Assembly: GCA_030442055.1 (NCBI GenBank)
Contig: JAUJEB010000015.1
Coordinates: 62,001 to 126,000, forward strand
DNA length: 64,000 bases
Origin: Agaribacillus aureus
GTDB taxonomy: Bacteria; Bacteroidota; Bacteroidia; Cytophagales; Cyclobacteriaceae
Reading direction: 5' to 3'
This document shows positions 51,482-62,372 of the stretch, piece by piece. Within the stretch, counting starts at the first letter, position 1. Every line of letters begins with the position of its first letter. The position numbers and the translations under genes are program-made. Under the pieces are notes generated by a model. It saw only the letters and a list, made by a program, of their open reading frames with translations. It made no database searches and was not told the DNA's origin.

Positions 51482-52519
51482 TCACTCCCCTACACATCCT
51501 TCTCCATTCACCCTTACTCCACCTTCCGTTATCTCATAGGTAATATTAACGGCATGTTCCAACATCTTCAGCACATTCTCCAGGCTTTCATAGCGGAACT
51601 GGCCGGTTATCTTGCAGTTTCCGATTGCTTCATTGTCCAGGATAATTTTAGTACCATACCACCTTGACAGGGTTTTAGCTACCTCGGAAAAAGGGGTTAC
51701 TTTGAACAACAAGGTCCGGTCCCTCCAGGCCACCTGATCGGTAAACGTTACTGGCTTCAGGTTGGCTACCTTATTATTAATCCTGTAAAGCATATTGGCA
51801 GTGACAATGGTTGGTTTGCTGGTGCGGTCATTAATCCGGGCCACTGATACCTGACCTTTTTGTACCGCCACTTCGGCCATACCATCCTCCGGATAAGCCT
51901 TGACATTAAAAGCTGTCCCTGAAGCGGTGGTAATCAGGTTACCTGACCTCACCACAAAGGGTTGTTTCGCAGCTGGGATCACTTCAAAGAAGCCTTCCCC
52001 TTCCAGGGTCACCTCGCGTGTCCTGCCTTTAAACTGCGCGGGATAAACCAGTTTGCTGGCTGCATTCAGCATGACCATCGAGCCGTCGGAGAGTGTAATG
52101 GTAGCCTGCTGTCCGGGAATGGTGCGCTTTTCCAAACTCGAGACGGCCGCTGGCTCTCCAACATGGTCACCATTGAACCAATAGATCGATAAGGCGGCAA
52201 TCATCACTAACACTACCGAGGCTGCCACCAGGTAAGGTCGGACGCGTTTTTTTTTCGGTGTGGTGATAAATGGTAAAGGAGAAGATCTGCGAGGGTGGCT
52301 GACAATGTGTTCGTAAGCCTTATCGATTTCTGAGGCGGACAATCTTTTGATATTTTTTTTTCTGAATTGACCGTCCCATTCCCGGGCTATCAGCTCCAGA
52401 ATTTTATCAGCAGTTGCCGGGTCTTTGACCTGACTCAAATAAGCACTAAACTCTTCCCTGGTGGCAGTGCCTGCCAGGAATTTTTGGTATAACTGTGAAA
52501 GGGGGACTTTTGGGTTCAA
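51482..52519 (-). CDS. FecR family anti-sigma/transmembrane regulator (cassette B)
   Basis: This 345-residue protein has the same layout as the cassette A FecR: N-terminal segment (YQKFLAGTATREEFSAYL), membrane helix (about 92-112, YLVAASVVLVMIAALSIYWF), FecR domain (ITLSDGSMVMLNAASKLVYP, GEGFFEVIPAAKQPFVV) and DUF4974 domain (KVTPFSEVAKTLSRWYG). It ends VNGEGCVGE, again with a cysteine in a glycine-rich tail. No SusC/SusD pair follows; the convergent neighbour is the TPR membrane protein. Confidence 0.92.
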   Translation of the reverse strand: MNPKVPLSQLYQKFLAGTATREEFSAYLSQVKDPATADKILELIAREWDGQFRKKNIKRLSASEIDKAYEHIVSHPRRSSPLPFITTPKKKRVRPYLVAASVVLVMIAALSIYWFNGDHVGEPAAVSSLEKRTIPGQQATITLSDGSMVMLNAASKLVYPAQFKGRTREVTLEGEGFFEVIPAAKQPFVVRSGNLITTASGTAFNVKAYPEDGMAEVAVQKGQVSVARINDRTSKPTIVTANMLYRINNKVANLKPVTFTDQVAWRDRTLLFKVTPFSEVAKTLSRWYGTKIILDNEAIGNCKITGQFRYESLENVLKMLEHAVNITYEITEGGVRVNGEGCVGE

Positions 52520-52615
52520 AACGCTGGTTAATTTAGGTGATTGATAGTTAATGATTATAAAGATGTTTTCGACCTGTCAATCCATAAGAACCTGGCCGAA
52601 AACAAGCAAGCTGTG

Positions 52616-53065
52616 TTATGGGATTGTTAAAAGGTAGACCAGTTGTTTTTTCAGCCTTAGCCGGGCTATGGCACCGTAGATACCGAGGTAATAGCCTTTG
52701 TTGAAACTTTCATTACCGGCGTCATCCATCGCCTTTTGTGCCTGTTTCCAAAGCTCTTCCTCTGTAGGACCATCGCCGTTGACGCTTTGCAGGAATTCAT
52801 ATATAAAATGGGCGATTAATTGGCCGATATAAGTGTGAAACGGCAGGCTTTGATTAATTTCCGCACCAAAAATCCAAATCCTGTCAAACGTTGCCTGTAC
52901 CATTTTATGGGCTGCCTGCTCCATTTTGACGTGCTGCAGGGTAAAACGAAACAGTGTATGGTAATAGGCGTGCATCAAAGCCTTAAGCCCTGCCGGATCG
53001 CCTGCAATTATTTTATCGCGTATATTATCTTCGGAATATGGCAAAATCGCTGTGTTAATTTTCAA
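52616..53065 (-). CDS. sigma-70 region 2-only protein (cassette B)
   Basis: This 149-residue paralog of the cassette A protein shares I-x-x-GD, HVK-x-E-x-A, VQA-x-F-x-RIW and ELW-x-QA-x-KA, with a C-terminus LVYLLTIP against LIYQFTVP. Region 2 is more eroded (NKIIAGDPAGLKAL is not as canonical), and there is no region 4. The spacing to the FecR gene (96 bp) and to the HTH gene (236 bp) nearly equals that in cassette A (99 and 249 bp). Conservation of both the C-terminus and the gene order argues for a functional short form. Confidence 0.7.
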   Translation of the reverse strand: MKINTAILPYSEDNIRDKIIAGDPAGLKALMHAYYHTLFRFTLQHVKMEQAAHKMVQATFDRIWIFGAEINQSLPFHTYIGQLIAHFIYEFLQSVNGDGPTEEELWKQAQKAMDDAGNESFNKGYYLGIYGAIARLRLKKQLVYLLTIP

Positions 53066-53301
53066 AAAAATTTAAGCCATCACCCGTTACAAATACCTGA
53101 TCAGATGTGTAACATCCACGTTAGTCGTCTAAAGAATAGCTGGTGATTAATTCGAAAATGTGGTAATTTTTTTGAAAATATACAAGCAAAACATCAAATA
53201 ATTCGAACTAGCAGCGTCGTAAGCAGCAACAGTGTGAGCACCATTAACGAGGAAAACAAACTTGCCACAATTACCATAACCTAATACCCCACACGCCACG
53301 C

Positions 53302-53559
53302 TCAAAACTCCGTCACAATGCCATGCTCAATGGCATACCGCACAATTCCCAGCACCCCCCTGGAGCCGGTCTTCGCGAGTAGTTTTTGCCGGTGCCGGTC
53401 TACTGTTCTTTTGTGGATGTTCAGTTCGCGAGCGATATCTTCGGTAGTTTTTTCAGCACAAAGCAAGTGAATGATCTTAAGCTCAGTAGGAGTAAATTTT
53501 ACCTGGTTGGCTGGCTGATGCTGGTTGGGTTGGCCAGATTTGTTGTTTTCGTTTTCCAT
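53302..53559 (-). CDS. stand-alone LuxR/GerE-type HTH protein (cassette B)
   Basis: This 85-residue protein has a 19-residue polar, Gln/Asn-rich N-terminus and one GerE HTH (VKFTPTELKIIHLLCAEKTT, then EDIARELNIHKRTVDRHRQK). It is the same length as the cassette A protein and closely similar in the HTH (both continue RQKLL-x-KTGS and end near Y-A-I). It has no sensor domain and is the first gene of cassette B. Confidence 0.82.
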   Translation of the reverse strand: MENENNKSGQPNQHQPANQVKFTPTELKIIHLLCAEKTTEDIARELNIHKRTVDRHRQKLLAKTGSRGVLGIVRYAIEHGIVTEF

Positions 53560-54493: not shown

Positions 54494-55132
54494 TCACATA
54501 ACTGCCAACGATAAGAATGCCTCTTTTTTCGTGATTGGCATGCCCTCATCTGATAAAGCTTTGACCCTGTGGTAAAAAATAAGGAAAATCGTTCTCGAAT
54601 GGCATTCCGATTTAATAGTCTTTAGAAGACAGGCCATGTTATTTATCGTTGCTTTATCAGTCACATCATGAATATAAATCAGAGGCCCTTTTTGCGTTCC
54701 CCGCAGGGAGATTTTTATGTCACTGCTGTATTTTAGAGCATATCTTTTTTTGAATTCATCCGCAATAAGGTGTGCCTCATCGACATCATCTGCCGAAGGG
54801 ACCCAGGATTGGCCATCAAGCATATACAACAAAAGTTCTCGCAGTGGTTGATATTGGATGTCGGTGGAATCCATCTGATCAATTTGGTGGGCCACCCGAT
54901 TAACCACTTCGGTCCTTTGTGCCTGGGTTTTGGACCGGCGGTATGCTTTGGCATATTTTTTATCCACCGCCTTCAAACGCGCTTCCATACCCTTCGAAAA
55001 TTTTTTATTTTCCTTCAATTTCGCTAATTGTTTTTGATTCATGGCGCAATCAAATTTCCCGTAATCATGCTCTTGCGCATAAGAAATTTGACAGAAAAAA
55101 AAGACAACTACAACGACCCGTAAAATTTTCAT
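54494..55132 (-). CDS. hypothetical exported protein
   Basis: This 212-residue protein has a signal peptide ending near ISYAQ and a soluble helix-rich region (KKYAKAYRRSKTQAQRTEVVNRV), then a more ordered C-terminal half (RGTQKGPLIYIHDVTDKA). No family was recognised. It is the most downstream gene of the minus-strand TIR island, 58 bp after the ATPase gene, and may belong to its transcript. Confidence 0.55.
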   Translation of the reverse strand: MKILRVVVVVFFFCQISYAQEHDYGKFDCAMNQKQLAKLKENKKFSKGMEARLKAVDKKYAKAYRRSKTQAQRTEVVNRVAHQIDQMDSTDIQYQPLRELLLYMLDGQSWVPSADDVDEAHLIADEFKKRYALKYSSDIKISLRGTQKGPLIYIHDVTDKATINNMACLLKTIKSECHSRTIFLIFYHRVKALSDEGMPITKKEAFLSLAVM

Positions 55133-55190
55133 GTTTGATATATTTTGATTTTCCTGTCTCTGGCAAAGAAAACCACTTTTTTAGATCTTT

Positions 55191-57323
55191 TCAGTACGCA
55201 ACTTCATCAGCGGTGTCGTTTTGAAGATATAATTGCCAGCGATCATCTTTGTTTTCACCACCATTGGCTGCTAGCAACTTAATAATCATTAGAAAGTTTT
55301 CATATTGCTTCCCTAATTCAGGATTTTTATTTGGATTTTCCAGATTGTGCAAGGCGATGGTCAGGGGGGTAAACAAGGCGTAATTACCTGCCTGATACTT
55401 TGGGTCGATGTATGGGTTGACATTGATATTTGGCTGGGCCAACAACTGTCGGACTAACTCCACATATCCACCCGAAGCGGCAAGATATAAAGGGGTCTCC
55501 CCGATAATATCGATTTGATTGACGTCTACATCGTCCTTCAACAAAATTTCCCGGACTTTTTCCATATCACCAGTGCTGACCGCATTTAAGAGTGCCTTAC
55601 CATTGATAACCTCCATCTGGCCGGCCTTGGCAGCTTTGGTATACCATTCAAATGCCATAGCCACATCCCGGTTGATACCAAGACCGGCATTATATAACTT
55701 TCCGAGGTTATACATGGCATCAGCGTTACCAGCCTCAGCGGCTTTCGTGTACCAATCCAAGGCTTTAAGATAATCCGAATAGACGCCCTCACTAGTGTCA
55801 TATAACATGCCAATATTGTTCATAGCCGCAGTGTTACCGGCCTCAGCGGCTTTGGTATACCATTCCAATGATTTTTGAAAGTCTTGCTTAACGCCCAGGC
55901 CATGCTCATAAAGTTGTCCGAGGCCATTCATCCCTGCAGCATTATTTCTATTTGCAGCTTTGGAGAACCACTCAAACGCCCGCTCAAAGTCGGGGGCAGT
56001 ACCCAGGCTATCCCGGTAGAGTTGGGCTAATCTATTCATAGCATCGACGTTTCCAGTCTTGGCGGAGGTCTGAAACAATACAAAGGCCTCATCGTATTCA
56101 CCCAACTCAAATTTTAATTGGCCCAGTTTTAATTGATCATTGCCGAACTTAGTAAAACGACTGTCAAGCAAAATAGTACCGGAGATCAACAACACCAGTA
56201 CTAATATCGAATAAAACCAAACCGGTTTCCTTTTTCGAAAAGCAGTTATCTGATTTAAAAAACGGCTAAAATAATTCGTGGACACCGGAACGTCTACACG
56301 CTGAGACTCTTCTAACTTGTCTGTTAGCACTTTCTTCAGCTCTTGGTGGCGTTCCTTAATATCTTGGGCCGATTCCATTGAACTTGCCATTTCCCAATCC
56401 AGCCTGGTAGTTAATAAACGGGTTAAAACGTCATAGGCATACCCGATGCTGGTGGGGTCTTTTGTGCCTTCTTCCAGGACCGGGAGCCGCTCCCCAAAAC
56501 TCCAATAAGGAATATAGGGGATACGCAAAACATCCAATATGTCTTTAGGTTTGGCTTTTCTATAAAGCCAATCATTGTAAAATATCTCAAATTTTTCAGC
56601 AATAATTTTTCGCCATTTATAGGCAGATTCATATTCCGTTCGGCTTTCGTCGCGGGATGGGACAGGAACAGCTACCAGCCGGTTTCGTTGAAAGGGCAAT
56701 TTTTGATGGGCGCCGATGGCGGCAGAAATTATCTGGTGGCAACCCTCAATGCTCGCCTCGTTGGTCGTAAAAAAGAAAACCAACACATCGGGCAGGTGGA
56801 TGGTACAGATACCGCCAATGTCAGTAATGCCTGTGCGACTATCTATCAATACAAAATCATAGGTGCTTCTCCACTGATTTCGAACAGCTTCCAGGTAATT
56901 CCCAAAATCTGTTGAATCAAATAAATCGTTCCAGTCTAAGGCCTGCAATTTGCTAATATAATCTTCGGTATTCTTGCCGGCGGAAAGTATGGAAAGCCGG
57001 TCTTTTTTACCATTGATACTAACATCCAACAGGCAGTCTCGCCAGGTAAATGAGGGCGCTCCCCCATTCGTTCCGGAATAGTGGGATTTATAGTGATAGA
57101 TCAGATCGACGATTCCTGATTTCTCATCGATGGCATCCAGTAAATAAGACGATTTTCCGTTGTCCAGATATTTATCAATACCTGGCGCTTCAAGATCAAA
57201 ATCGACCACCAGTACCTTATATCCCGCTTTGGCCATTAAAGCGGCTACATTGGCAAGCGCCATAGACCGGCCTACCCCTCCCTTATAGGAATAAAAGGTG
57301 TATATTAACCCCGGCCTTTTCAT
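55191..57323 (-). CDS. KGGVGR P-loop ATPase fused to membrane helix, Sel1 and ankyrin repeats
   Basis: This 710-residue protein has a MinD/ParA-like domain (about 1-300) with a deviant Walker A, YSYKGGVGRS (11-20), and VLVVDFDLEAPG (37-48). A membrane helix follows at about 368-386. Sel1 repeats (about 396-580, such as AMNNIGMLYDTSEGVYSDY) and C-terminal ankyrin repeats (about 590-660, GETPLYLAASGGYVELVRQL) make up the rest. ATPases with the KGGVGR variant are found next to TIR and similar effectors in predicted conflict systems. Its start overlaps the TIR gene by 4 bp, so they are co-translated. It may be a membrane-anchored switch or scaffold for the TIR proteins; this is an inference. Confidence 0.8.
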   Translation of the reverse strand: MKRPGLIYTFYSYKGGVGRSMALANVAALMAKAGYKVLVVDFDLEAPGIDKYLDNGKSSYLLDAIDEKSGIVDLIYHYKSHYSGTNGGAPSFTWRDCLLDVSINGKKDRLSILSAGKNTEDYISKLQALDWNDLFDSTDFGNYLEAVRNQWRSTYDFVLIDSRTGITDIGGICTIHLPDVLVFFFTTNEASIEGCHQIISAAIGAHQKLPFQRNRLVAVPVPSRDESRTEYESAYKWRKIIAEKFEIFYNDWLYRKAKPKDILDVLRIPYIPYWSFGERLPVLEEGTKDPTSIGYAYDVLTRLLTTRLDWEMASSMESAQDIKERHQELKKVLTDKLEESQRVDVPVSTNYFSRFLNQITAFRKRKPVWFYSILVLVLLISGTILLDSRFTKFGNDQLKLGQLKFELGEYDEAFVLFQTSAKTGNVDAMNRLAQLYRDSLGTAPDFERAFEWFSKAANRNNAAGMNGLGQLYEHGLGVKQDFQKSLEWYTKAAEAGNTAAMNNIGMLYDTSEGVYSDYLKALDWYTKAAEAGNADAMYNLGKLYNAGLGINRDVAMAFEWYTKAAKAGQMEVINGKALLNAVSTGDMEKVREILLKDDVDVNQIDIIGETPLYLAASGGYVELVRQLLAQPNINVNPYIDPKYQAGNYALFTPLTIALHNLENPNKNPELGKQYENFLMIIKLLAANGGENKDDRWQLYLQNDTADEVAY

Positions 57324-57913
57324 GTGAAGTTTTGCAATTTAACTTTCGGTTGGACCTTTGATGATTCCGGTAACGGCGCAAGTTTAAAATCTGAAAATTG
57401 GGGAGGATTTCGAATACTCTTTGCCAGTAGTTTGCTAAACACTTTAACTTCATCTTCAAGTTGCAACGCTTTTGGTCCTTTCCAAAAGTATTCTTCGTTC
57501 GAGAATAACGCAACGTAATCTTTCCATTCCCTGCTCTTGGCCTTTTCCGGAAAGTTATCACCATCGAATACCTTTACAGGAAACAGTACTTTTGATCCAA
57601 TAACCTCTTGTGCCCTTAATTCAAAACTTTGCCATTCAGCGCAACACCACTTGGAATTAAAATAAGGGGGATTCCAGATAGCCACCATCACCTTGGCAGT
57701 CTTTAACCCGTTTTTAAGTTCATCACGCCAAATTTGGCCGGTCTCTATAGCTTCATCAAAAAATATTTTAGGTTCATAGCCAAGCTCCAGATGTAGCCAA
57801 TAGGCGATTCTCGATTTAAATGTTCTGATCCATCTTAGTCCATATTCCTTTTCTTCAGGTATATTGACCCGCCTATAGCTAAAAAATAGATCGTAAACAT
57901 AGTTATCCATCAT
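57320..57913 (-). CDS. TIR domain protein
   Basis: This 197-residue protein is almost entirely one TIR domain. It begins YDLFFSYRR (8-15), has a GLRWIRTFKSRIAYWL helix, and carries the SKWCCAEW segment in which Glu93 corresponds to the catalytic glutamate of NAD-cleaving TIR domains. The C-terminal 45 residues are polar and unassigned. TIR domains in bacteria often act as NADases or signal generators in phage defence. It overlaps the KGGVGR ATPase gene by 4 bp. Confidence 0.85.
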   Translation of the reverse strand: MMDNYVYDLFFSYRRVNIPEEKEYGLRWIRTFKSRIAYWLHLELGYEPKIFFDEAIETGQIWRDELKNGLKTAKVMVAIWNPPYFNSKWCCAEWQSFELRAQEVIGSKVLFPVKVFDGDNFPEKAKSREWKDYVALFSNEEYFWKGPKALQLEDEVKVFSKLLAKSIRNPPQFSDFKLAPLPESSKVQPKVKLQNFT

Positions 57914-58028
57914 TCGGGATATTTAATTTCCTATAGCTTTTAACCTGGCATTTGTCTAAAAAATGATTTTAATTAATAAAATAAGGCAAATATTTTTAAA
58001 TCGAAAGTGTTTTCAACGTTAAACTTGC

Positions 58029-59357
58029 TTAACTGCTCAACCTTTCTAAGGCTTTTTTTGCCTGCTCATTACCAAGATCTGCGGCTTTTTGGTACCATTC
58101 CATAGCTTTGTCATAGTCTTTATCAACCGCTTTACCATATTCGTAAAAATTGCCAATGTTATGCATAGCCCAATCATCTCCTCCTTCAGCTGCTTTTTGG
58201 TACCATTCCAAAGCCAGGTTGAGATCTTTTTTTACACCCTGCCCGTTTTCATAAAGCAGCCCAATCCCATTTGTACCAGCAGCATTTCCGGCATCTGCGG
58301 CTTTTTGGTACCATTTCATAGCTTTATCATAGTCTTTATCGACCGCATAACCATGTTGGTAATAATAGCCAATATTATGCATAGCCCAACCGTCCCCACG
58401 ATTAGCCGCTTTTTGATACCAGTTTAAGGCCTTTTGGTAGTTTTGGTCCACACCATGACCATATTCGTACAGAACACCAATACCAGTCATGCCAGCGATA
58501 TTTCCAGCCTCTACGGCTTTTTGAAACCATTCCATGGCTTTGTGATAGTCTTTATTGACCGCATAACCGTTCTGGTAATAATAGCCAATATTATACATAG
58601 CCCAATCGTTTGCGCCTTCAGCCGCTTTTTGATACCAGGTTAAGGCCTTTTGATAGTCTTGAGGCACTCCATAACCACGGCTGTACATCACCCCAATATA
58701 GGTCATAGCACGGCTATGTCCAGTCTTAGCCGCTTCCATAAACAATTCCAATGCCTCATTGTACTCTTCAGCCTCATACTTTCTCCGTCCCTTTTCGTAA
58801 ATGTTTTTCACATCGACCAGGTGCTTCTGCTTAATTTTAGGGGCTGATTTTTCTTTTTCCCCAATTTTGCTTTTTTCCTGTGCTTTGGTCAATTGCCTTT
58901 CCAATCCCTTAACCAAACGATCCATATCACGATGAAAATCCGGATTGGGGCGGACAGGCTGGCCATGGCGATAGATCAGTTTTTTGAGTGTTGCCGGCAA
59001 CTCGGTTTCCGAAGGCATCCCGGCACCTTGTACCAGCAAGGGAATGATTGGAATATTGCGTTTTAAGGCCGATTCAATTTCAATCCTCACATAGTCATTT
59101 TGGACCTGTAAACGAACTTTGCCTTGCTCATTCTTGATTTGGGTCCAATTTTTCCCGATCACCGCCAGCAATATCTGACATTGCCCCACCTGCCGGTCAA
59201 TGTATTCCTTAAAATCCACTCCCAAAGGAATGGAATCCACATCGGTAAAGATGGCTTCAGGGCCAAAATGTTGGCTCAGCCGGTCGTGAATGCGACCCGT
59301 GACGTCCGCGCTATCCTCCCGCCGGTAGGAAATGAATATATGGTTGGACCGATCCAT
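58029..59357 (-). CDS. TIR-Sel1 repeat protein
   Basis: This 442-residue protein has an N-terminal TIR domain (about 5-155: HIFISYRREDSADVTGRIHD, FTDVDSIPLGVDF, and DYVRIEIESAL, with the catalytic-type glutamate near 93-95). A basic linker follows, then about seven Sel1 repeats of 36 residues (about 195-440). The repeats alternate between an NIGYYYQ-type and a GIGVLYE-type unit, so the array has a 72-residue super-period. Sel1 repeats bind other proteins, and the neighbouring ATPase carries the same repeat type. It should be a sensor-effector protein of the TIR island. Confidence 0.88.
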   Translation of the reverse strand: MDRSNHIFISYRREDSADVTGRIHDRLSQHFGPEAIFTDVDSIPLGVDFKEYIDRQVGQCQILLAVIGKNWTQIKNEQGKVRLQVQNDYVRIEIESALKRNIPIIPLLVQGAGMPSETELPATLKKLIYRHGQPVRPNPDFHRDMDRLVKGLERQLTKAQEKSKIGEKEKSAPKIKQKHLVDVKNIYEKGRRKYEAEEYNEALELFMEAAKTGHSRAMTYIGVMYSRGYGVPQDYQKALTWYQKAAEGANDWAMYNIGYYYQNGYAVNKDYHKAMEWFQKAVEAGNIAGMTGIGVLYEYGHGVDQNYQKALNWYQKAANRGDGWAMHNIGYYYQHGYAVDKDYDKAMKWYQKAADAGNAAGTNGIGLLYENGQGVKKDLNLALEWYQKAAEGGDDWAMHNIGNFYEYGKAVDKDYDKAMEWYQKAADLGNEQAKKALERLSS

Positions 59358-59428
59358 CGCTAAACTGGCTATAATTGAACCTTTAATTTAATAAATTTTC
59401 TGAAAATTTGGTTAGATAATTTCCATCA

Positions 59429-60085
59429 TCACGATCCATTGATGATTTTCTTCAATTCTTCAGCGTAGTCGATTAAAACCTGGTTTACTTCAGTCATAGA
59501 GCTAATCAACTGATCATAATCGGGGTACTCCTCCTGGATGGCTTGAGGGGTCTTCCCTATGTTCTCTGTTTTATCTATTTCTTCCTGGTACCATTTTCTG
59601 AATTTTGCCTGGTACTCGGTAAGATGAGGCCTTAAACCTTTGTTGAGTATATCTGACAAAAGTCCTATTAAAGACGCTGATGACGTGTTTTTCCACAACA
59701 ATTCTCCCGAGATCTTTTTGAGTTCTTCCCGGGTAGTTTGAAATAAGGCATACCAGGAATTATAAATTTCAACAATGACATCCCTTTGTTGGTCTATTTT
59801 TATGGCCGCCTTTCTGGTAATCAGCTCAATATAAATTTTATGCGCAATTTCAACATGCTGATAGTTGCGCGTAATTTGATATTCGATGGCCGCCCCTCCT
59901 AGCTCATAGGTAAGCTTTACAGGGATGATATCTTCTGTCACGTGGCCTTTCCTGTATTTTTTTATCAACCATCGGACCAATAGATAACCCGCCGCAATAA
60001 TGACGATGATCCAGGTGTTCAAGACAAAAGAAAAGGTCCATTGGTCTTCATCAAAAAGAACTTCTATAATCTTTATGTCATTCAT
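59429..60085 (-). CDS. one-helix membrane protein of the TIR island, hypothetical
   Basis: This 218-residue protein (start MNDIKIIEVLFDEDQW; an upstream Met at 60121 is possible) has one membrane helix (about 20-40, TWIIVIIAAGYLLVRWLI). A cytoplasmic helical region follows with the striking block YQITRNYQHVEIAHKIYIELITRKAAIK and a C-terminal coiled-coil-like part. I recall similar unnamed proteins next to effector genes in other Bacteroidota, but cannot name a family. It lies 71 bp upstream of the TIR-Sel1 gene in the same orientation. Confidence 0.6.
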   Translation of the reverse strand: MNDIKIIEVLFDEDQWTFSFVLNTWIIVIIAAGYLLVRWLIKKYRKGHVTEDIIPVKLTYELGGAAIEYQITRNYQHVEIAHKIYIELITRKAAIKIDQQRDVIVEIYNSWYALFQTTREELKKISGELLWKNTSSASLIGLLSDILNKGLRPHLTEYQAKFRKWYQEEIDKTENIGKTPQAIQEEYPDYDQLISSMTEVNQVLIDYAEELKKIINGS

Positions 60086-60362
60086 ATCAATGATTTCATT
60101 TTGCGGGTTTTGCCATAACAATATAATAATCTATTCCCTTTTTAACCAAAAGTACCAGATTGAACATAAGCAATAACTTTTCGCCACATTTCAATCTACC
60201 ATCTTTGAAATCAGCCACTGGTAAAATGAATAAGCCCCAGCGCATTCTGTTTTGTCCTCTACCCCGTTAACTGTCAGCTGCATATCAATATAAAATTGAT
60301 GCGGGTAGTTTCTGGCCGCTATTGCCCTACTTTTTTACAAATCAAATAAACAATCCCGGATT

Positions 60363-62372
60363 TTAAATCCCCTTTGCTCTTTCCGGCAGCACCTCGTTAA
60401 AAAGTCTTGCCATCCATTGCTCCAGCTTTTCTTTCGAAATAGATGGCTGTAAGGCCCTTAAAATCCATTTAATATTGAGGCTATAAACATGTCTTTGGCC
60501 ATCTCTCTGAATTAACATGACCGTAAGACGCCGATTGATAATGCCTATATGGCGGGCCTTGGTGTTGGACCAGGCATTTTCAAAAGCGCGAGTGCAGCGC
60601 TGCTTTGAAGTAAATGGTAAATCCTTTTCGTTCCCAAAACGTCTGAACAATTCACCGACAAATTCCACTTTTGTACGGGATCCACCGATTTTTGCCAGGC
60701 AATATAAAACAATCAGCGTATCTTCCGGGAATTGCTGCAAAAACCCTTTGATCATATTGTGATGCCGGGCTTCAATGGCATGTTCAGCTGCATGGGACAG
60801 GGCATCCTGAAGATTCTTACCCAGGTCTTCCCAATGAGGTGCTGGTTTTTGATGACGCAATGTGAATTTTATCCGTGGCCGATTTTTAAAATCTTGAAGC
60901 AAAGCCGCAGTACGATTTTGATCGCGGGTGATGGCATCCGGAGCAAGAAATTCCATTTTTTCATCGGTCATGGCGGATAAAAATTGTTCTTCGTTATAAC
61001 CATCTTCCAAAAAATAATTAATCTTTTGACTTAACAGGAAAGCATGCTCTGCCTCTCGCGCCAGCCATTGATAGTTTCCAGCGATCGCACCTGGCTTGGT
61101 GGGGTCTTTGGGCACAATGATAATTGTTCTATCAGCCTGCCAGATTAAGGTTTGTATGGTTTCATAAATATTGGCATCCGGGTGTAAATTTTCGACAGTC
61201 AGAATTTCAATCTCATTGGTGTAATGTTCGGCAAAGTAGTGTTCAAATTGCTTTTTCAAGTGTTCCGATGCGGAAACACCATGGTTATAGGAAATAAAAA
61301 TACGCCCTTTTATGCTTGGGATCTTATTGTGATTCAGGTTGAGTAGAAATATGGCGAACTCCACGATGCATTCCATCCATACGCTTTCAGGCCTTAAATT
61401 TTTTAACTTATCCAATTCGTTATTATGGTAATATTTTCTGGCATGACGTAACAGTTCAATATCTCCATAATTATCTACAAGTTCTTTAGCAGCACCCGCT
61501 CCGTTTAGCTTATCATAATTTTTGTAACTCTCTTCAATTTTGTCCAGATAATCCTTACTTCTGGATTCCAGTCCAAGGTGTTTATACAGTTCGTTGAGAA
61601 AATAAAGGGTTGTGAGCCGGAAGTATTGGGCCAGGTAGATGTCAGTTTCACTTTGTTCATACAGATGGCAACGCACTTTTTGAGCCTGGTCAAATCCATT
61701 ATGCTTGTTGGATTTCCAACTGCTCCATTCATTGTGATGTGGGATCACTTTCCTTAGCTTGCTTTGAATTGATTTACCGATAAAGTCTTCAGCCAATTTG
61801 GCCCATTCAAAAGCCTCAGGTAGACTGGCCTGGCGGCAGATGGCCCTGAAAATTTGGGCCACGTCTTCGAAATAGCGTTGCATTACTATCCCAAATGTAC
61901 CTGTAAGACTTTCAAGCAAGTACTGGTCCGCAGGAAACATGCCGCGGTATTGATCACCATTTTTGTTTATTCTGTTATGGTATAATACGACTTCCGCTTC
62001 CGTTGTTTCACCATGCAGTTCAACCTGATAGCTAATGCCGGTATAAAGCACAGGGACGGGTCCAAAATGATGAACCGCCACACCTAATTTAGGGAAACGG
62101 TCTGGTTTGCTTCTGATGAGACTAACCAGGTATTTGTCTAGATAAAAATTTCCAGCAATCTGGTCTTCGCTAAATTTAACCAGTTCATTCCAGTTGGTCC
62201 TTAACGCATTAGATAAGAAATCGGGGTGAAATGGGGCGAGTAAGAGGCTTCTCTTTGTCGAAGGTTTAGGGTCTAGTGCATAGGTTAGTAGTGACTTAAG
62301 CGTTCCACTTTTTTGTGGAATAAGTATTTTGCGGCGATAATACTCCGCGGGGTAGTCTAATGACAATGACAT
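60363..62372 (-). CDS. large protein with central TIR/SEFIR-like domain
   Basis: This protein has about 669 residues from MSLSLDYPAEYY (an upstream Met at 62414 would add 14). The first 350 residues are an unassigned, probably ligand- or partner-binding region. A TIR-like domain follows (about 357-500): KGRIFISYNHGVSASEHLKK, then RTIIIVPKD, then WLAREAEHAFLL with a glutamate at the TIR catalytic position. The last 110 residues (TLIVLYCLAKIGGSRTKVEF and beyond) look like a winged-helix type domain. No family name was recalled for the whole. It is the first gene of the island, 277 bp before the membrane protein. Confidence 0.65.
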   Translation of the reverse strand: MSLSLDYPAEYYRRKILIPQKSGTLKSLLTYALDPKPSTKRSLLLAPFHPDFLSNALRTNWNELVKFSEDQIAGNFYLDKYLVSLIRSKPDRFPKLGVAVHHFGPVPVLYTGISYQVELHGETTEAEVVLYHNRINKNGDQYRGMFPADQYLLESLTGTFGIVMQRYFEDVAQIFRAICRQASLPEAFEWAKLAEDFIGKSIQSKLRKVIPHHNEWSSWKSNKHNGFDQAQKVRCHLYEQSETDIYLAQYFRLTTLYFLNELYKHLGLESRSKDYLDKIEESYKNYDKLNGAGAAKELVDNYGDIELLRHARKYYHNNELDKLKNLRPESVWMECIVEFAIFLLNLNHNKIPSIKGRIFISYNHGVSASEHLKKQFEHYFAEHYTNEIEILTVENLHPDANIYETIQTLIWQADRTIIIVPKDPTKPGAIAGNYQWLAREAEHAFLLSQKINYFLEDGYNEEQFLSAMTDEKMEFLAPDAITRDQNRTAALLQDFKNRPRIKFTLRHQKPAPHWEDLGKNLQDALSHAAEHAIEARHHNMIKGFLQQFPEDTLIVLYCLAKIGGSRTKVEFVGELFRRFGNEKDLPFTSKQRCTRAFENAWSNTKARHIGIINRRLTVMLIQRDGQRHVYSLNIKWILRALQPSISKEKLEQWMARLFNEVLPERAKGI

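Follow-up and report, generated by a model that had tools for sequence, protein, structure and literature searches.

In this work, we describe six genes of Agaribacillus aureus that look like a local assembly of recurring TIR modules rather than a conserved six-gene system. They lie in a 64,000-nucleotide stretch of contig JAUJEB010000015.1 (positions 62,001 to 126,000 of the forward strand; G000:C7:62001-126000 in our numbering of the 9.39 Mb host genome), referred to here, at its full length, as the window. The six open reading frames (ORFs) are all on the minus strand, span 54494-62372 and are named A to F in transcription order. Two parts of this island recur elsewhere: gene B, whose product carries a domain found nearly always beside TIR genes, and the pair D-E, in which a TIR gene is joined to the gene of a KGGVGR ATPase. 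Our preferred explanation, to which we give slightly less than an even chance, is that the island consists of TIR-based defence modules (D-E, and B-C perhaps together with A), probably acting through abortive infection.

Gene B (59429..60085, minus strand) codes for a protein of 218 amino acids with a transmembrane helix at residues 19-37, followed by a helical domain of a TIR-adjacent family. Its start codon is most likely the ATG at 60085 rather than a TTG located upstream, as judged from the length of its relatives. A tblastn search of plasmids with B revealed a full-length relative in Aureispira (37.6% identity, E 3e-40) together with weaker ones, a profile made from four sequences also recognized two patatin-like proteins of rhizobia by their N-terminal parts (E about 1e-10), and the genome searches found B in 7 of 395 and in 4 of 375 genomes, the host genome being counted in both. 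The plasmid search, a second query and the genome searches gave a total of 21 places in four phyla, including the window, which are not fully independent by descent; the near-copies H27 and H28 of S. longwoodensis, a second R. phaseoli record (H11), the locus L090 and weak plasmid matches to Tn3-type genes and to Listeria (E 0.03 or worse) were left out. The 20 places outside the window were found without reference to TIR genes or neighbours, and at 20 of all 21 a TIR gene, detected by Pfam or by searches with the Pfam models, is present at 2.2 kb or less from B: in the window, in L058, L059, L069, L070 (both copies), L071, L072, L073, L075, L076, L084, L085, L086, L087, L088, L096, L097 and L098, and in L089, where the match comes from the genome search and is split by a stop. 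As a background, the 132 TIR_2 matches counted in 344 Mb from 99 Bacteroidota genomes, a count that took TIR_2 only and left ThsB_TIR aside, place about 0.4% of random points at 5 kb or less from such a match. A TIR scoring over the cut-off of the Thoeris-type family ThsB_TIR is found at at least 13 of the 21 loci (L058, L069, L071, L072, L073, L075, L076, L084-L087, L096 and L097), a lower bound as part of the TIRs was scanned; in L071 the ThsB_TIR and TIR_2 scores are level. Overlapping reading frames of B and the TIR gene are seen in the annotation of L071 and, with ORF starts chosen here, in L069, L085 and L096 (the B start given in the Aureispira record is 42 bp later than the ORF start we used).

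The second module is the pair D-E. Gene D (57320..57913, minus strand) codes for a TIR protein of 197 amino acids with a WCxxE motif (Pfam TIR_2, 47.4 bits, cut-off 28). It overlaps by 4 bp with gene E (55191..57323, minus strand), which codes for a 710-residue protein bearing a KGGVGR ParA/MinD-like ATPase domain at residues 7-201 (NCBIfam AAA_KGGVGR, NF047398, 163.7 bits, over the curated cut-off of 90), a transmembrane helix at residues 368-386, and Sel1 and ankyrin repeats, the latter, detected by Pfam, being absent from the first-pass annotation of this DNA. The neighbours were examined at 22 KGGVGR loci: 5 from a family search (window counted), 6 of the 33 others from a phylum search, whose remaining 27 places were excluded (the window's aside), and 11 of 12 plasmid records. 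At six of these 22 loci (window, L045, L051, L052, L058 and L059) a TIR gene is located directly upstream of the KGGVGR gene, and at all six, which belong to Bacteroidota and Rhizobiaceae, the distance between both genes is -11 to +2 bp. The upstream proteins were recognized as TIR by Pfam in the window, L045, L051 and L059, and by BLAST to D in L052 and L058; the C and E columns of the WCxxE motif are invariant in the six paired D proteins, the window's included, and in the phmmer alignment this motif stands against the WCLDE of RPP1, a plant TIR protein. The E proteins of the pairs have the KGGxGR loop in common. At the other 16 loci the upstream partner is HEPN-like (5), MqsA-like or helix-turn-helix (HTH)-like (5), or other or nothing clear (6), the labels HTH, MqsA, HEPN and EAD being taken from record annotations or read by eye, except for M28A, M28B and M28C (L053 and L067) and EAD10 (L061). 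Two of the five HEPN-like loci, L053 and L067, are full PDC-M28 sets. In a Rhizobium plasmid, the KGGVGR gene appears to be split by an IS21-type element (L068:8986-13683).

A tree of 21 ATPase domains groups the window E with L052, from the same class, its nearest relative, and with L058, from a Sinorhizobium plasmid (support 83/80). The five HEPN-type rows together with one unlabelled row form a branch of their own (98/97), apart from the window E, and the six TIR-paired rows are not a single clade; the DUF4062 label of one row (L054:7701-8258) is unproven, with no Pfam match at 0.001. What changes among the paired E proteins is the C-terminal part, which carries Sel1 and ankyrin repeats in the window, a GH25 lysozyme fold in L052, pentapeptide repeats in L045, a TIR domain in L058, an FGE-sulfatase domain in L059 and, slightly under the cut-off, tetratricopeptide repeats in L051. 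A search of genome contigs with E gave one locus, matched through the Sel1 part. The charge on the N side of the helix and on its far side is +4 versus +1 in the window E and +4 versus 0 in L052, and a positive N side places what lies beyond the helix outside the cytosol in these two proteins; thus the Sel1/ankyrin part of the window E is probably periplasmic. The L045 protein has a helix at a similar position, with charges of +1 versus -1, the scan gave no transmembrane helix in the L058 and L059 proteins, and in L051 the lone high-scoring stretch falls within the ATPase part.

The L052 protein (L052:8053-10101), a KGGVGR ATPase with a transmembrane helix, has its GH25 lysozyme-fold domain beyond the helix (109.5 bits), where the window E has the Sel1 and ankyrin repeats. 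Since the GH25 fold acts on peptidoglycan, its position there fits a periplasmic site. The catalytic motif of GH25 is Asp-x-Glu, and in the alignment with the best PDB match these residues correspond to Asn-x-Asp in L052, so the domain may be weak or inactive and might sense the wall rather than cut it. The first-pass annotation had taken the Sel1 repeats as pointing to mutual assembly of E and the TIR protein C. Pfam does detect these repeats in both proteins, although the conclusion is doubtful, because if the window E has the topology that we infer its repeats lie across the membrane from C, which has neither a helix nor a signal.

What is the B domain? The profile A2, built from 18 of the 21 sequences and searched against 882 ORFs, a set that contains repeats from overlapping loci, recovered all 21 places with E values of 9.3e-40 or less. 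In the 18 aligned sequences A81, E87, R91, S110, F115, R119, L147, R152 and P153 are invariant or near-invariant, and the window B, one of the seeds of the profile, fits the E87/R91/S110/R119/R152 pattern. B has no meaningful match in Pfam, NCBIfam, PADLOC, PHROGs or the PDB sequences (for NCBIfam and PHROGs, with the window B only). Profile A2 gave only scattered matches to Pfam, in one or two members, with neither macro nor SLOG among them; in the PDB sequences the best match of the window B was Crov588 (E 0.0039), with no single stretch passing, and those of the profile were weak (best E 0.053), designed coiled coils and occludin being among them. The single-sequence AlphaFold model of B has a predicted local distance difference test (pLDDT) score of 46.0. 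The family is thus unmatched in the databases searched, and its place beside TIR genes in distant bacteria makes it a candidate partner in bacterial immune signalling.

The domain occurs with different attachments. A transmembrane anchor is present in the eight Bacteroidota copies scanned (window, L069 and L084-L089) and in two Streptomyces copies; the charge after the helix is +3 or +4 in six of the eight Bacteroidota copies, and the B domain should therefore face the cytosol. At three rhizobial loci it is fused to a patatin, recognized by Pfam in L076 (35.8 bits), the fusion proteins of L058 and L059 being 47-48% identical to that of L076 along the protein. A constant domain with varied attachments and near-constant TIR company, often with coupled genes, is what one would expect of a partner that mediates the action of TIR proteins. 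How it would do so can be read in two ways, since the soluble forms described below speak for docking or regulation, whereas the swap between membrane and phospholipase forms speaks for a signal receiver. B could serve TIR proteins as an adaptor or regulator by protein-protein contact, akin to effector-associated domains, and not be a nucleotide receiver, in which case the membrane or patatin forms would merely place or couple a TIR complex. Such a role, which we regard as possible if somewhat unlikely, agrees with the soluble stand-alone B found in Photobacterium and Calothrix beside large TIR fusion proteins without an output domain of its own, and with the B/TIR frame overlaps, which are typical of complexes; however, the near-invariant charged residues E87, R91, R119 and R152 together with S110 would also suit a phosphate-binding pocket, and exchange of a membrane output for a phospholipase is typical of ligand-gated effectors, as in CBASS and Thoeris.

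Our preferred explanation, TIR-based defence modules, leads to the following model. According to excerpts of PMC12847820, TIR proteins are enzymes that cleave NAD (nicotinamide adenine dinucleotide) and, in doing so, starve the cell or else produce a signal meant for a partner. We propose that D is such an enzyme, held by E acting as a ParA/MinD-like switch ATPase. The C-terminal half of E would cross the membrane and watch the envelope, its variable parts being comparable to the variable sensor parts of NLR-type proteins, and pairing of E, driven by ATP, would gather D into clusters and turn on NAD cleavage. Thus, D-E could be a split NLR: sensing by E, at the membrane or beyond it, would be followed by its pairing via the ParA-like domain and by activation of D. 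In the other module, the TIR protein C would act through B, whose helical domain, cytosolic on its membrane anchor, would either take up a TIR-made nucleotide or dock on the TIR protein and so pass the signal to the membrane; in the rhizobial relatives the same domain is placed on a patatin-type phospholipase. The most specific form of this model, in which the B domain would be a receiver, so far undescribed, of a TIR-made nucleotide and the basis of a new class of Thoeris-like immunity, and D-E adds a split NLR with its TIR in trans, is put forward only tentatively. The sequences directly show which genes are present, how tightly D and E are coupled, that both modules recur, that B is linked to TIR and that domains are swapped, whereas phage defence, cell death, the signal, NAD cleavage and the topology are inferred.

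Several observations weigh against these proposals. The lysine of canonical P-loops is replaced by arginine in all 21 E-type rows, so E may lack ATP hydrolysis. As regards B, five of the 21 copies (two from Calothrix and one each from Photobacterium, Ruegeria and Vibrio) have neither a transmembrane helix nor a fused enzyme, and B is therefore not always a membrane effector; in L085 and L087 the scanned helix is located further upstream and no net charge follows it. Around the Ruegeria B (L074) no TIR was seen, this being the sole exception among the 21 places. Whereas at least 13 B loci have a TIR that passes ThsB_TIR, those of the window give no match to this family at E up to 1; in L072 and L073 the TIR that passes ThsB_TIR scores higher with TIR_2. 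Gene order also differs: the TIR gene comes before B in many relatives, whereas in the window the clear TIR gene, C, comes after it. Finally, TIR_2 matches are denser in some B carriers (4 in 2.3 Mb in G356 and 5 in 2.6 Mb in G364), for which the figure of 0.4% is several-fold too low; the true background may be several-fold above it, and still far below 20 of 21.

Could the six genes be a single machine, in which A senses, B and E sit in the membrane and F is a periplasmic subunit? Gene C (58029..59357, minus strand) codes for a protein of 442 amino acids with a TIR domain at residues 7-121 followed by Sel1 repeats (Pfam TIR_2, 47.2 bits, cut-off 28; Sel1, 205.6 bits). Gene A (60363..62372, minus strand; 669 amino acids) has an unassigned N-terminal part of about 370 residues, a weak TIR-like stretch at about 372-459 (TIR_2, 13.9 bits, E 0.079, under the cut-off of 28) and an unassigned tail. 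Gene F (54494..55132, minus strand; 212 amino acids) has a hydrophobic, signal-like N-terminus, the signal being assigned by eye, and could possibly be a periplasmic partner of E. The common strand and the short gaps (71 bp for B-C, 115 bp for C-D and 58 bp for E-F) would agree with a single machine, as would the presence of B together with D-E in Sinorhizobium and Rhizobium beringeri, which with the window makes three of the six D-E loci. However, B is missing from the other three D-E loci, the surroundings of the remaining 18 B places, examined over about 4.6 to 25 kb, contain no KGGVGR gene, 277 bp separate A from B, and the best match of A in 15 genomes or records, the majority with relatives of its neighbours, was no better than E 0.11. 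We consider a single machine improbable, and we rejected one six-gene system because B and D-E are found apart and the data searched hold no usable relatives of A or F.

A and F are near-orphans in the data searched. Among 196 family genomes, A matched its own and one other, G124 (E 3e-4); we judged the latter match to be due to chance, as it sits in an ORF of 1084 residues that resembles a SusC-type outer-membrane protein and adjoins a SusD-like ORF (both calls by eye). A has no match in NCBIfam, PADLOC, the PDB sequences or plasmids, and its single-sequence AlphaFold model has a pLDDT of 34.7. F has no match in the families searched, its comparison with other DNA being a BLAST within the fetched loci and not a genome search. 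A viral origin was also considered and rejected, as viral contigs gave no match to patterns built from A or B, and the ATPase part of E is unmatched in phage records at 1e-5.

These results bear out much of what the first-pass annotation had described, namely six same-strand genes in this span, three TIR or TIR-like proteins (the wording is apt, since C and D pass the Pfam cut-off and A does not), a deviant P-loop ATPase on a membrane helix (E), and a membrane protein of unassigned family (B). Its view of a membrane-linked TIR conflict island holds as regards the defence-gene neighbours found in relatives, and does not as regards one multi-component system; its own refuting condition, genes lying apart in relatives or a full match to a known system, is half borne out, B and D-E each occurring without the other.

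The company of the B and D-E relatives includes TIR, SIR2-HerA, type III-B CRISPR, SLOG and caspase-looking genes. L096 has, in this order, SIR2, HerA, two small ORFs (one HTH-like), two ThsB-type TIRs and B. A ThsB-type TIR, Nmad2 and B follow each other in L086 and L097, with a gene nearby that resembles the helical portion of 5-hmdU DNA kinase; this gene set is common to L086:5893-9881 and L097:1031-3830, the kinase-like gene being recognized by Pfam in L097 and by reading in L086, which holds two further ORFs in between, and it hints at a TIR defence tied to hypermodified DNA bases. Pairs of a TIR gene and an Nmad2-looking gene recur beside the B-patatin gene in rhizobial plasmids (L058:2346-5902 and L076:2069-7787), and the annotation of L076 also lists uracil-DNA glycosylase and pyrophosphohydrolase genes. 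A very TIR-dense stretch of an unannotated Rhizobium plasmid (L059:1721-17343) contains a D-E pair, SLOG cluster 2, TIR and B-patatin, as well as TIR proteins with C-terminal repeats (by eye). Upstream of the TIR-B sets of L085 and L087 there are proteins of 658-670 amino acids without a Pfam match (L085:10352-12328 and L087:10279-12291), and L087 also has a caspase-looking ORF.

The island might instead serve envelope-stress or social signalling, with a second messenger made by TIR and without cell death. The probable periplasmic part of E and the signal-like start of F would agree with this, as would the FecR-like, sigma-like and LuxR-HTH ORFs located directly downstream of the island (51482-53559; family scan of the LuxR-type HTH only) and the lack of matches in viral contigs (A and B patterns) and phage records (ATPase part of E). 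The patchy distribution of B (7 of 395 and 4 of 375 genomes) and its defence-gene company, however, fit conflict genes and not housekeeping ones, and we regard a non-defence role as unlikely. Outside the island, the host genome has a sole TIR_2 match (G000:C32:576820-577152), which adjoins a response-regulator-looking ORF, and no B domain is present in the stretch around it (L047:9056-10177). A tRNA search of the window gave none, promoter and terminator counts are the same as in shuffled sequence, and the guanine-cytosine content, 0.37-0.44 in the island versus 0.47-0.48 in parts of the left flank, is a weak difference that we did not use as evidence.

Immunity in plants, animals and bacteria has a common root in TIR enzymes, for whose signals only a few receivers are known. 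The B domain is a testable candidate for another such receiver, or for an obligatory partner, and if the former is true one helical domain, present in four phyla, would turn a TIR-derived nucleotide into membrane attack, by a transmembrane anchor or a fused patatin. Profile A2 provides a handle for naming 'hypothetical' genes in defence islands, and, to judge from the D-E pair, immune sensing may rely on ParA/MinD-like proteins in place of STAND ATPases. In the literature, most subscription journals lying outside the search, no paper naming a pair of the TIR-B type was found among the matches listed, and nothing was found on KGGVGR, PDC-M28, FxsC with TIR, or TIR, Sel1, anti-phage and MinD combined.

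How does the island compare with known systems? As the first-pass annotation had stated, none is matched in full, the comparison with Thoeris, CBASS, PDC-M28 and FxsC in Pfam, NCBIfam and PADLOC failing in each case, and none of the six proteins has a passing match to a SIR2, SLOG, Macro or nucleotide-cyclase family in these databases, in line with its claim that no cyclic-nucleotide synthase or SLOG/Macro sensor is visible. CBASS outputs include transmembrane and patatin effectors, the same two kinds of output that the B family has, but there is no CD-NTase cyclase among the six proteins, which have TIR genes instead. As in Thoeris of types I, II and IV, in which a ThsB TIR goes with a ThsA effector, a TIR gene adjoins a membrane or enzyme partner, and elsewhere the partners of B are often ThsB-type TIRs; the effector of type II Thoeris is a TM-macro protein, according to the excerpts of PMC12847820. 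In contrast, the window has no SIR2-SLOG, TM-macro or caspase partner among its six proteins, A, C and D do not match ThsB_TIR (PF08937) at E up to 1, and B matches neither macro nor SLOG. C has partial matches to PADLOC ThsB1 (best E 6.9e-6), to NCBIfam ThcB4 (33.1 bits, cut-off 220) and, in its TIR part only, to the PADLOC SAVED-TIR model (E 0.0011).

PDC-M28 is a PADLOC candidate with parts A, B and C, of which B is the KGGVGR protein and A and C are HEPN-like and P-loop-like, respectively, by our reading. The KGGVGR ATPase of E and the small partner gene directly upstream of it recall this set, although E, whose best PADLOC match is PDC-M28B, matches it over residues 8-249 only (101.9 bits, versus 608 bits for a full member), the partner in the island is a TIR, and neither M28A nor M28C is found among the six proteins, both being present in L053 and L067. 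D resembles proteins of the FxsC/SAV_2336-type actinobacterial clusters, matching FxsC_Nterm with 52.8 bits, under the cut-off of 130. MinD/ParA-like domains, predicted to be inactive, were reported in bacterial conflict systems, the MoxR-vWA ternary systems among them, by Kaur and co-workers (excerpts of PMC7159879); in contrast to both these and the FxsC clusters, the island has no MoxR, vWA, AP-ATPase or peptide-maturase gene among its six. Thus, an ATPase of this kind in conflict settings is not new, and what is added here is its tight pairing with TIR and its swapped, partly membrane-crossing C-terminal half. As judged from its sequence, the island is best filed as putative bacterial defence of the TIR-based kind, in a variant that includes a partner domain not described before.

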